Positions 1,151 to 5,265 of a DNA stretch of 64,000 bases are shown piece after piece; position 1 is the first letter of the stretch; each line of letters starts with the position of its first letter. This DNA comes from Bacillota bacterium. GTDB taxonomy: Bacteria > Bacillota > Clostridia > Lachnospirales > Lachnospiraceae. Below the pieces are notes generated by a model. That model had not been told where the DNA came from. It searched no databases and saw only the letters and a program-made list of their open reading frames with translations. The stretch is from NCBI GenBank assembly GCA_023663285.1, contig JAMPHT010000008.1:21749-85748 (forward strand), given 5' to 3'. The position numbers and the translations under genes are program-made.

Positions 1151-1885
1151 ATGTCCAATATAAATCTACGTTCCGCAAACACCCCGGCGCCTGAGCTGAC
1201 TGCTTCTCAGGAGCCGGATACAAGCGCCGGCACACTGAAGATCAGTGTCATCTCCACCATAGGGCTGGTCCCCGTAGAAAATGCCACTGTCACCGTCTCC
1301 TACACCGGCGATCCGGAAAACCCTCTGGAAGTACTTACCACCGACAGCTCCGGACAGACTCCCACCATAGAGCTGGCCGCACCTCCCATTGAGCTTTCCC
1401 TGAACCCGGACGCATCCGAGCAGCCATACTCCGAATACAATATATCCGTCACCGCCGAAGGATATGAGCCCGTTTATGTATCCGGCTCCGAGATCCTGGC
1501 GGATGAGCTGTCCCTGCAGGTCATCCGCATGGACCCCCTTGCCGCCGCAGACGAGGCGGAAAAAGTGGTCACCATCCCCGCCCACACTCTCTGGGGAGAA
1601 TACCCGCCGAAAATACCGGAGGACGAGATCAAGCCCATGGCGGAAACAGGGGAGATCGTATTGAGCCGTGTGGTCATACCGGAGTACGTCATTGTCCATG
1701 ACGGCGCTCCCGGAGACCCCACCGCCCCCAACTACTGGGTCCGCTACCGGGACTATATCAAGAATGTGGCCTCCTGCGAAATATACTCCACCTGGCCTGA
1801 AAGCGCCATCTATGCCAATGTGCTCGCCATCCAGTCCTTTACCCTGAACCGGGTATATACGGAGTGGTACCGGAATCACCACTGA
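1151..1885 (+). pseudogene. SpoIID-like peptidoglycan-binding protein, 5' part (split by insertion)
   Basis: N-terminal half of a gene cut at base 1867/1868 by the serine-recombinase element. The start chosen is the ATG at 1151 (MSNINLRS). A beta-sandwich-like region rich in Thr, Pro and Val covers residues 10-150. The start of a SpoIID/LytB-type segment follows, with DYIKNVASCEIYSTWPESAI and the FTLNRVYTEWYRN helix. Codons after 1867 belong to the element and end at a TGA at 1883. Joining 1867 to 4684 gives a continuous 432-codon frame, so this is an insertional disruption and not decay. A cell-wall or spore-envelope role is inferred from the domains. Confidence 0.85.
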
Positions 1886-3512
1886 TTCGGGGTAGGAAGT
1901 CATTCAGATTGATTTTAAAACGCACTACAATCTGTTCGTTGGTCACATCAATTCTTTCTATCAGCTTATTTACAAGAACTCTCTGGGTCTCTCTGTCGGC
2001 GTCTCTGAATATCTGCTGCCAGGTTTTCCATTCATCCGCTGTGACCCTGACCTCTTTTAATGCTTCCCGTTTTTCCTGCAGCAGCCGTTCCTCTTCCGCC
2101 TTCTTTTCTTTCCGTTTATGAATGGCATCCATCAATTCCGTCAGGGATAGCGCATAATCTCCTGTCATTGCTTCGGGAATATGCTCTTCCATAGTTTCAA
2201 TTCCCTGTATGGTCTTTGCAAGCCCTTTCTGCAGCTTTGCTATCTCCGCTTCCTGCTTCTTCTTTTCCTTATTCTGGCTCTGTTCTATTATATCAAAAAT
2301 GTTTTCATTCTCCTGCAAACGTCCAATATATTCTGTCAGACACTCAAATACTATCTTTTCCACCCAGTCAGCGCGGAACTGTTTCACTTTATTATGGGGG
2401 ATTCCACTTTGTGCAGACTGGCAGCGATAAATAGGGGTTTTGCTGGTTCTCTTTTCGCCTGTTTCTTTTATTATCCAATAATTATATTTACTTCCGTTTG
2501 TCATTTTTCTGCCGCAATAACCACAGTGAATCACGTCTATGAGCGATAACATACCGTCGTTCCTCCTTATTACAGTTACATTTTCATGTTCCAGCGTTTT
2601 TACGTACTCATCAGACCTACACTTTCGCTTATCCTGTGTCCTGTCCCACATTTCACCGCTGATGATTTGTATGCTTTCATCAGGACTGTTTGACTTTATC
2701 CAGTCCTTGCTATCCAGTCTATGGAGCTTTCCGTCTTGCCGTTCACGGCGTTTGTATGCCACATGACCCGCGTAAACAGGGTTTGTCAGGATGCTTGTAA
2801 TAGTGCCGGCTTTCCATGTGTCCTTGGGCGCTTTGCTTTTATAATAATCATCTTCGTTCAGCAATCTGGCTATTTTGGTCGAGCCAAATTCCTGATTAAG
2901 TGATAAATCATAGATATGTTTTACCACTTCTGCCTGTTCTGGAATAATTTCAAGATGATGCAAGGCTCTCCCGTGCTTGCTCAATTCTCCTGATAATTCT
3001 AATTTATAGCCATACGGAGCCGCCCCGCCCATAAATTTTCCCTGCTGGACCAATTTCCAGGCAGTGTCCCTGACCCTCATTCCCGTATCAGAGCTGCTTT
3101 TCTGGGCATTGCCATATCGAAGCGCTAACATTATCTGACCCATCATATCTTCGACTTCAGGGGTAATACAGCCATCCTTGACCGTATAAATATCCACTCC
3201 TGCATTCTTTAAAGCCATAACATATGGCCCAATTTCCCACATTCTGCGTCCTACACGGTCATCCTTATATGCCACCAGAATATCATATTCTGAATTTTGT
3301 GCATCCCGCAGCGCCTCCTGAAGGACATCTCTGTCTGCCACCGCATTTTTGTAGCCACTGTTACTTCCCTCAAAATATTCCTTTGTATCCAATACCCAAT
3401 CATCCTGCCTACCCACATACTCTGCTACTAATTGCCGCTGTACAGACAAATCTCCATCCGCTTCCAATTGCTGATTAGAACTTACTCTTAATAACATCCG
3501 CACTCTCTTCAT
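1839..3512 (-). CDS. Large serine recombinase
   Basis: A 557-residue site-specific recombinase that should integrate and excise the surrounding element. The N-terminal resolvase domain has RVSSNQQ near residues 9-15 (catalytic serine) and DDRVGRRMWE. A Recombinase domain follows, with GAAPYGYKLE and ILTNPVYAGHVAYKRR. A zinc ribbon has CGYCGRKM and a later YRCQS. A coiled coil then covers roughly residues 400-480. The last 8 codons (1842-1865) and the stop are antisense host sequence beyond the left junction. In the circular element the frame would instead run on for 35 codons to a TAA at 4574-4576. The start overlaps the small upstream ORF by ATGA. Confidence 0.95.
   Translation of the reverse strand: MKRVRMLLRVSSNQQLEADGDLSVQRQLVAEYVGRQDDWVLDTKEYFEGSNSGYKNAVADRDVLQEALRDAQNSEYDILVAYKDDRVGRRMWEIGPYVMALKNAGVDIYTVKDGCITPEVEDMMGQIMLALRYGNAQKSSSDTGMRVRDTAWKLVQQGKFMGGAAPYGYKLELSGELSKHGRALHHLEIIPEQAEVVKHIYDLSLNQEFGSTKIARLLNEDDYYKSKAPKDTWKAGTITSILTNPVYAGHVAYKRRERQDGKLHRLDSKDWIKSNSPDESIQIISGEMWDRTQDKRKCRSDEYVKTLEHENVTVIRRNDGMLSLIDVIHCGYCGRKMTNGSKYNYWIIKETGEKRTSKTPIYRCQSAQSGIPHNKVKQFRADWVEKIVFECLTEYIGRLQENENIFDIIEQSQNKEKKKQEAEIAKLQKGLAKTIQGIETMEEHIPEAMTGDYALSLTELMDAIHKRKEKKAEEERLLQEKREALKEVRVTADEWKTWQQIFRDADRETQRVLVNKLIERIDVTNEQIVVRFKINLNDFLPRISGDSGTTPYIPGSG
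1866..1872. other. Left attachment core (attL side)
   Basis: GGTACCG shared with 4682-4688. The flank to the left is host gene, to the right is element. AGTGGT (1863-1868) and ACCACT (1878-1883) form a short inverted repeat across it. Confidence 0.7.
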
Positions 3513-3685
3513 AAAAAATCACTCTTCCTTTTTTTCATCTGTTTATGCAATTCCATTTTCAGAATCTCTTTCACTTCTTCAATATGCGTTGTTCTGCCAG
3601 TTTCTTCCGGAAATTGCAAAATCACATGAACTTTTTTGTTCTTATATTCCATTTCTTTTTCTATTTCTTTCATAGACTGCCCCAC
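3509..3685 (-). CDS. Small protein encoded just upstream of the recombinase
   Basis: A 58-codon frame from GTG 3685 (54 codons from the ATG at 3673). It is rich in Lys and Glu, with the central stretch VHVILQFPEE and a helical C-terminus EVKEILKMELHKQMKKRK. The GTG is preceded by AAAGGATATTGCT, a fair ribosome site. Its TGA overlaps the recombinase ATG (ATGA), which argues that it is translated. I do not recognise a family. A role as recombinase accessory or directionality factor is possible from position only. Confidence 0.6.
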   Translation of the reverse strand: MGQSMKEIEKEMEYKNKKVHVILQFPEETGRTTHIEEVKEILKMELHKQMKKRKSDFL

Positions 3686-3734
3686 AGCAATATCCTTTAC
3701 ATTAAATCATATGTGCTAAAGTGTTGAATTTTTA

Positions 3735-3763
3735 ATGACTTTTACCACTTTGTCTGTTATAAT
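3735..3763 (+). promoter_or_regulatory. Promoter of the element's cargo pair
   Basis: ATGACT, 17 bases, TATAAT, followed by GGGAGG at 3785-3790 ahead of the ATG at 3799. Confidence 0.6.
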
Positions 3764-3798
3764 GATAAAAAAGCTATAAGTGCAGGGAGGTTGATTAC

Positions 3799-4029
3799 AT
3801 GAGACTGACACGGCAGCAGATGGCAGAAAAGTATCCTGACAGGTATTTGGGGATTACAGATATACAATATGAAAACAACGATGGTGTAACAATAGAGTCG
3901 GCAGAAATCGTTTACACAGATAAATCAGAAGAAGAACTGCTTACTTTGCAGATATCAGGAACAGAAGACATTATGTGCTGGTATACCACGGGAAGTAAAG
4001 TAAACGTAGGAGTTATGACTTTATGCTGA
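3799..4029 (+). CDS. Hypothetical small protein, partner of the aspartic protease
   Basis: 76 residues, starting MRLTRQQMAEKYPDRYLG, with an acidic centre (YTDKSEEELL) and a C-terminal Cys. No family is recognised. A GGAGG site precedes it. It ends inside the next gene (7-base overlap, 4023-4029), so the two are co-translated. The sequence looks like a small alpha/beta domain. Confidence 0.6.
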   Translation: MRLTRQQMAEKYPDRYLGITDIQYENNDGVTIESAEIVYTDKSEEELLTLQISGTEDIMCWYTTGSKVNVGVMTLC

Positions 4030-4511
4030 CAGAAGAAATATACAATCTGGATAAAAAAGAAAACAGTCCTGTCATTGTACTGCCTTGGTTCTATAACTGC
4101 AGAGTTTTGGTTGACACAGGCTCAACAATGCCTATGTGGTTAAAAAGCATTGTGCCGTTAAAAATCAAAGGCGCAGTAAAGCAGGACAGACAGTTGGAAT
4201 TAAACGGCGTTGGCGGCAAAACATCAGGAGATTTGTATAAGGTAAATTTTGACTTTGGAAATATTCACTTTAAGGACTTGCCCATTGTACACAAAGAAAT
4301 AAAAGTTGCCGACGCTTATATGATATTACCTGCAACCTTATTTGAAGGTATGATTTATGAGATTAACAATATAGAGCATACCTTTAAAGTAAAGGTTGAC
4401 AACAAAAGCTATTACAGACAATTTAAGATAAAGGATAATCACGGCGTTCCATATGTATATTTGGCTAATACATATGAAACAGAAGAAGAATATGATTCCT
4501 ATATCACTTAA
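4023..4511 (+). CDS. Retropepsin-like aspartic protease domain protein
   Basis: 162 residues. The pattern RVLVDTGSTMPMW puts the catalytic motif D31-T-G-S after a hydrophobic strand, as in single-domain retroviral-type aspartic proteases, which work as homodimers. A second hydrophobic segment (ADAYMILPATLF) sits where such enzymes have Ile/Leu-Leu-Gly. The Gly is Pro here, so activity is not assured. There is no signal peptide or membrane segment, so it is probably cytoplasmic. It overlaps the 76-residue gene upstream and is the last gene of the mobile element. A cargo or accessory role is inferred. Confidence 0.65.
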   Translation: MLTEEIYNLDKKENSPVIVLPWFYNCRVLVDTGSTMPMWLKSIVPLKIKGAVKQDRQLELNGVGGKTSGDLYKVNFDFGNIHFKDLPIVHKEIKVADAYMILPATLFEGMIYEINNIEHTFKVKVDNKSYYRQFKIKDNHGVPYVYLANTYETEEEYDSYIT

Positions 4512-4681
4512 ACTGACAGATTCAGGCAGACAAATATGAAAATGTTCTTATTTGCCTGCCTGCACAATACCCATTATATTATTTTTTTCTCTATTATTTC
4601 ATATGCCTCTTTCCCCTTTAGTTTGATTACCAGCTCGTCCAATATAAGCTCTCTGCAACCACGAATCAGTGATGGTTTCGG

Positions 4682-4688
4682 GGTACCG
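4682..4688. other. Right attachment core (attR side)
   Basis: Second copy of GGTACCG. Host coding resumes at TAC 4684 in the frame that continues TGG 1865-1867. Confidence 0.7.
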
Positions 4689-5265
4689 CAACCAGGGCTA
4701 TGACTTTACCATTACCTCCTCCACCGCCTATGACCAGAAATGGATATACGGCAGGAACATCTACGAAAATATCGACTATCTGGTGGATACCATTTTTGCC
4801 AACTACCTGTCCAGGCCCGGCGTGCGGCAGCCCATATTCACCTCCTACTGCGACGGCAACAGGGTGACCTGCAACGGCCTGAGCCAGTGGGGGTCCAAAT
4901 ATCTGGGAGACCAGGGCTATTCCGCCATCGAGATCATCCGTTACTACTACGGCAACGATATGTATATCAACACGGCGGAGATCATTTCCGGCGTGCCCTC
5001 CTCCTGGCCCGGCTATGCTCTGAACATCGGGGCTTCCGGCGATAAGGTGCGCCAGCTTCAGACCCAGTTAAACCGCATTGCCCGCAACTATCCCGCCATC
5101 CCCACCATTGCGGCGGACGGCATCTACGGCCCCAGGACCGCCGAGGCGGTCCGAATTTTCCAGGGCATTTTCAATCTGCCTCAGACAGGCGTGACGGACT
5201 ATGCCACCTGGTATGAGATCTCGGAGATCTATGTGGGAGTGTCCAGGATATCGGAGCCGGGCTGA
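4684..5265 (+). pseudogene. SpoIID-like peptidoglycan-binding protein, 3' part
   Basis: C-terminal half of the split gene. It completes the SpoIID-like region (VTCNGLSQWGSKYLGDQGYS and RYYYGNDM, matching the family's conserved SQWG and YYxG positions). It ends with a peptidoglycan-binding type 1 domain (about 65 residues: GDKVRQLQTQLN, DGIYGPRTAEAVRIFQ). A possible GTG/ATG restart at 4669/4672 lies in element DNA. Without the N-terminal half it is unlikely to work. A hairpin terminator follows at 5274. Confidence 0.85.

Follow-up and report, generated by a model that had tools for sequence, protein, structure and literature searches.

A 2,816-bp mobile element of a gut bacterium, located in the window (the whole stretch of 64,000 nucleotides that was analysed), carries a large serine recombinase gene that appears to run through the element's own attP site, such that integration would move the tail of the gene away and give the enzyme a host-coded end. 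We regard this explanation as likely when taken as a whole. Its anatomy, with attP inside the gene and two alternative C-termini, together with selection acting on the tail, is very probable from the comparisons presented below. The functional step, in which loss of the tail would change or lower the activity of the integrated recombinase, is put forward tentatively, with doubt slightly outweighing belief.

The element occupies positions 1866–4681, between two copies of GGTACCG (1866–1872 and 4682–4688 on the forward strand, with the likely crossover dinucleotide GT at 1867–1868 and 4683–4684), inside a SpoIID/LytB-like gene. When it was excised in silico, the flanks fused cleanly and in frame into a single host ORF. 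The left half of this gene (1151–1864, forward strand) starts at a likely ATG and spans ...NRVYTE/WYRN..., and its ORF as integrated stops at 1885; the right half (4682–5265, forward strand) contains a peptidoglycan-binding domain. GGTACCG occurs twice in the window against 3.25 expected, so the 7-mer by itself is no proof of the element's ends. What establishes the insertion is the host gene in genomes G344 and G022 of the same genus, which is intact across the site at 81% identity. In the intact host-gene copies L202 and L203, PG_binding_1 matched above its cut-off and SpoIID/LytB matched below its cut-off. Exact-pattern searches of the window's own assembly found no joined attP and no empty attB, and the element had no DNA match among plasmids.

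The element-coded body of the recombinase lies on the reverse strand at 1866–3512 and contains the Resolvase, Recombinase and Zn_ribbon_recom domains (PF00239, PF07508 and PF13408) in order, all above cut-off, which places it among the large serine recombinases. It matches phrog_95 integrase (E 7.8e-76) and stays below the curated NCBIfam cut-offs for XisF (93.6 of 375 bits), CcrB (76.4 of 900) and CcrC (75.2 of 900). Read as an ORF, the integrated frame continues into a host-coded end, TPYIPGSG plus a stop (1839–1865, reverse strand), giving a protein of 557 residues, versus 584 residues when the element is circularised at the core (predicted junction ...TTTCGGGGTACCGGAATC...). In the circle the frame runs on into the detached 3′ end of the gene (4574–4681, reverse strand), which consists of a 35-residue tail at 4577–4681, conserved in relatives, and a stop at 4574–4576. 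The recombinase-side attP arm, an imperfect inverted repeat, lies at 1869–1892 and the distal arm at 4659–4682, both with approximate limits; the first 8–9 tail codons fall within the attP arm. The initial annotation had placed attP inside the recombinase gene and predicted different C-termini for the circular and integrated forms. Both points are borne out: the frame is open through the joined core, ORF reading yields the two proteins, and relatives share the arrangement.

Those relatives came from two sources. Among 397 genomes of the bacterial family we found 11 other full or near-full recombinases (37–64% identity), and every one of them (L112–L122) has half of this host gene, or of a paralogue, no more than about 1 kb away. 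GTDB contigs were also scanned, and of 124 loci the best 80 were kept. A host-gene match was present in the fetched stretch of 77 of these 80, in one of which (L092) the stretch is unbroken over the site; the three without a match (L035, L039 and L099) run to contig ends. Five elements (L044, L051, L070, L087 and L122) are inserted in a host-gene paralogue (about 34–53% identity) at the matching codon. A single metagenome bin (one assembly) holds three members of the recombinase family (L033, L037 and L094).

Missing element ends were sought in the same genome with the host-gene halves as queries, and ends were joined by script, with the core of L035 placed by hand. A first tally of 67 joined elements, 47 of them crossing attP, became 65 and 45 when L118 (a copy of L073) and L033 and L037 (both paired with L162, which belongs to L094) were dropped and L113 was added. 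The initial annotation had counted homologues that end at the integrated length as evidence against the arrangement, and this objection holds for part of the family: of the 65 elements with both ends, window included, 20 stop before attP (two of them, L093 and L104, with disrupted recombinase frames) and 45 stay in frame through it. As the 20 are integrated all the same, integration in those lineages can do without the tail. All 55 loci with a crossing frame share one frame phase at the core. The integrated host-coded end, counted from the core codon, is usually 3 or 6 residues long in elements of one orientation and 9 in those of the opposite one.

A conserved tail was counted in 31 of the 45 crossing elements (21 in one orientation, 10 in the other), and the remaining 14 have an unrecognisable tail. 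The near relatives L032 and L040 are among the elements that stop before attP or lack a recognisable tail. The figure of 31 comprises 28 tails supported by profile and 3 scored by eye: the tail profile finds 27 at E<1e-3, 12 of which served as its seeds, and L113 matches a joined C-terminal profile (E 6.1e-5). The three scored by eye (L107, L108 and L111) were counted on the strength of a common tail form similar to the motif; the tail profile reached L107 only at E 0.89, and L108 and L111 were absent from its matches at E up to 1.

Insertions fall at one host codon (TGG TAC of EWYRN; 1865–1868 in the window) and in both orientations. Across 58 reconstructed attPs, window included, mean arm symmetry was highest at the core dinucleotide (0.56 in 39 attPs and 0.60 in 19, versus 0.17–0.30 at shifts of 1–4). 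On the coding strand the centre is GT in the 39 host-forward elements and AC in the 19 host-reverse elements, letters that follow from how the core was set; the symmetry itself is independent of that setting. The test left out L035, four loci whose core was mis-set by a few bases (L069, L072, L093 and L096) and the three dropped rows, and L039, whose orientation is unset, was unscored.

We placed these characters on a recombinase tree of 82 rows, built by a quick method and drawn with a midpoint root, with several long branches flagged. At least 6 switches of orientation are needed on the 63 rows with both ends, and 11 when every tree row of known orientation is included. The close relatives L068 and L041/L042 have opposite orientations. 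The tail label was clustered (0 of 500 shuffles gave as low a count, in a run that counted L033 and L037 as crossing without a tail) and requires 17 changes in the corrected set. Profile-supported tails are scattered across a clade of roughly 60% identity, and tails in the 40% clade were recognised by eye only. On the simplest reading the tail may be an old feature that was lost repeatedly, although parsimony counts of this kind are blind to gain versus loss.

IMG/VR contigs of 68 kb (L197) and 146 kb (L215) hold two members of the recombinase family, which is therefore probably used by phages as well as by small elements. The initial annotation had proposed a search for the tail in uninserted homologues. 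In L215 (IMGVR_UViG_3300032007_000029, 145,752 bp; recombinase 59% identical), a single ORF runs from the body through a palindromic attP into ...LLIRGYRNIILKDLIIQY, a tail that is short and matches at only 15.2 bits. Its attP is symmetric at 13 of 24 arm positions around a GT centre, the best among 13 centres tried, and its neighbours look phage-like by eye rather than by family search. We take L215 to be uninserted from its intact attP and the absence of host flanks; a host-gene search of the record gave no match, and an empty answer there carries little weight. Over 5.2 kb the uninserted contig L197 shares 99.8% identity with integrated L094, and the L094 and L162 junctions join to give the attP of L197, as predicted. 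Because the recombinase gene of this pair ends ahead of attP, the pair is a test of the join and not of the tail.

The removable tail bears marks of protein coding beyond the attP arm. Tail codons 10–30 had 78, 48 and 103 substitutions at codon positions 1, 2 and 3 (11 disjoint pairs), and the z score of amino-acid similarity was 8.25 in the recombinase frame and −1.1 and −0.15 in the other frames. The dN/dS ratio was 0.26 for the tail versus 0.084 for 26 body codons. The tails used in these tests were picked for alignability. In L098 and L113 an in-frame insert separates the attP arm from the conserved tail, a displacement for which constraint on attP offers no explanation. Judged by these comparisons, the tail is under purifying selection and, beyond the arm, is protein-like in the recombinase frame only; such selection implies that the free element probably produces and uses the full-length protein. 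The earlier impression that the circle-specific tail is real protein thus gains support from a conserved coding segment in relatives and from the joined body and tail of L215.

The joined C-terminal profile, built from typed joined sequences, matched 16 of the 397 genomes and gave no full-length match; body and tail were separate matches in G000, G032 and G104, and in G163 the tail alone was matched. G319 (L005/L114) was considered as a natural contiguous tail because it matched joined-profile positions 3–90, but it reached only E 0.88 with the tail profile and is unsupported. A Pfam scan of three tails gave no match, the tail alignment had one weak match in the PDB (a designed protein, E 0.38), and the L046 tail had no match among phages at E up to 1.

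A small ORF (3509–3685, reverse strand) with a V.L.FP...EVK.IL pattern that recurs in relatives lies immediately upstream of the recombinase. It matched 15 other fetched loci by tblastn at E≤0.01 (L004 and L113 being one place), and a loose filter shows a similar-looking upstream ORF in 62 of 92 loci, counting duplicates. Its product is a candidate accessory or directionality factor. Two cargo ORFs were read on the forward strand. The first (3799–4029, 76 residues) had no family match and no copy in other fetched loci. The second (4023–4511, 162 residues) contains a VDTGS stretch that we take to resemble an aspartic protease motif; no family scored above cut-off (DUF1811 reached 19.1 of 27 bits), and no copy was found in other fetched loci or plasmids.

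The sequence shows body, attP and tail as a single ORF in the free element; crossover at the central GT (host strand) shifts the tail to the element's far end, and the recombinase gains its host-coded end. After entry or excision, we propose, the full-length form may work more actively or be better directed. Loss of the tail would alter, and most likely lower, the activity of the integrated copy and so help the element to stay. A further step, which we think unlikely, would make the detachable tail a built-in directionality control: the tailed free enzyme would integrate, and the tail-less one would be unable to reintegrate or would be tuned for excision together with the small upstream protein. 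It is no more probable that, as this step would entail, the recombination product reprograms its own catalyst and lineages without a tail use some other control. In phage serine integrases a separate factor usually sets the direction of recombination; here it would be the DNA product that changes the enzyme.

The best of the competing accounts, a real possibility that we nevertheless lean against, is a compact int-attP module in which the tail aids folding or binding in the free element and its loss on integration has no regulatory role. Repeated tail loss among integrated elements (20 of 65 stopping before attP, 14 of 65 unrecognisable) would fit such a module, as would the looser constraint on the tail compared with the body (0.26 versus 0.084), but the tail is kept in many clades even though other members make clear that the gene can end before attP. 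We consider it improbable, if compatible with a tail swap, that the element is a skin- or gin-like sporulation intervening element whose regulated excision restores the host gene, with the tail secondary. The SpoIID matches of the host gene fall under cut-off, and family members also occur in phage-like contigs; pointing the other way are the SpoIID/LytB-like character and peptidoglycan-binding domain of that gene, the presence of sigma-E and Spo0A in the window's own genome and the clean in-frame fusion of the flanks. Conservation of the tail through attP DNA alone, with the frame incidental, is largely refuted and very hard to credit: the attP arm does hold the first 8–9 codons, its imperfect palindrome is conserved and some members have a tail frame that is open yet unconserved, but the coding signal lies outside the arm in a single frame, and in L098 and L113 the conserved tail is shifted by the insert. 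Least credible of all is a separate small peptide translated alone from the distal end, since, although in the host-forward orientation a junction ATG or GTG in frame with the tail can come from host codons (ATG in L188), no ATG, GTG or TTG directly precedes the tail in the window's orientation (by eye), tail and body share their phase in all 55 crossing loci, and L215 joins them in a single ORF.

The dozens of natural variants, with the tail conserved, decayed or absent and in two orientations, open the role of the tail to direct test. Should the tail prove important for activity, the design of self-limiting integrases for genome engineering could also benefit.

The comparisons with known systems draw on excerpts of the cited papers. 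The window element falls with Mx8 and the rumA ICEs among elements whose integrase gene contains attP, in that its frame crosses attP and its C-termini differ. In the rumA ICEs of Streptococcus, the att site of the single serine integrase lies in the integrase gene, and the target and integrase genes swap their 3′ parts (PMC4701971). The window element likewise has a serine integrase with the att site in its own gene, a likeness drawn from arrangement; unlike these conjugative elements in rumA (PMC4701971), it targets a SpoIID-like gene or paralogue. In Mx8, attP lies within int, and IntP is given a new 3′ end after integration (PMC6070905, PMC4701971). There 13 residues take the place of a 112-residue end, and activity of the modified enzyme is reduced, according to one account (PMC4701971); another has the enzyme altered in specificity and not inactivated (PMC6070905). 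IntP is a tyrosine integrase (PMC4701971), whereas the window enzyme is a serine recombinase. Mx8 is the nearest measured case for an activity change of the integrated form. Archaeal suicidal integrases (SSV1, pTN3 and pT26-2) also carry the att site in the integrase gene, which integration splits; they are tyrosine enzymes with halves described as inactive (PMC8371274), whereas the window's enzyme loses no more than a short tail and keeps its recognised domains. In mycobacteriophage BPs, attP lies in an ORF whose integrated protein is C-terminally 33 residues shorter and differs in activity, but the protein exchanged is the repressor, not the integrase, and the removed part includes a degradation tag (PMC4557955). 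The gin element of Bacillus cereus gerE, with GirC and GirX, has measured sporulation-specific excision (PMC5595907). Like the window element it lies in a gene and has a serine recombinase and a small accessory protein (a candidate one in the window), with precise excision in gin; unlike in the window element, no tail swap is mentioned in the portion of PMC5595907 examined. Among the literature matches listed, with subscription papers mostly outside coverage, there was no paper on this recombinase family or target. The principle is thus already published, going by the excerpts available, for a tyrosine enzyme (Mx8) and for serine enzymes (rumA ICEs) (PMC6070905, PMC4701971); the present case has another target and probably another family, its removable tail shows selection, and insertions occur in both orientations.
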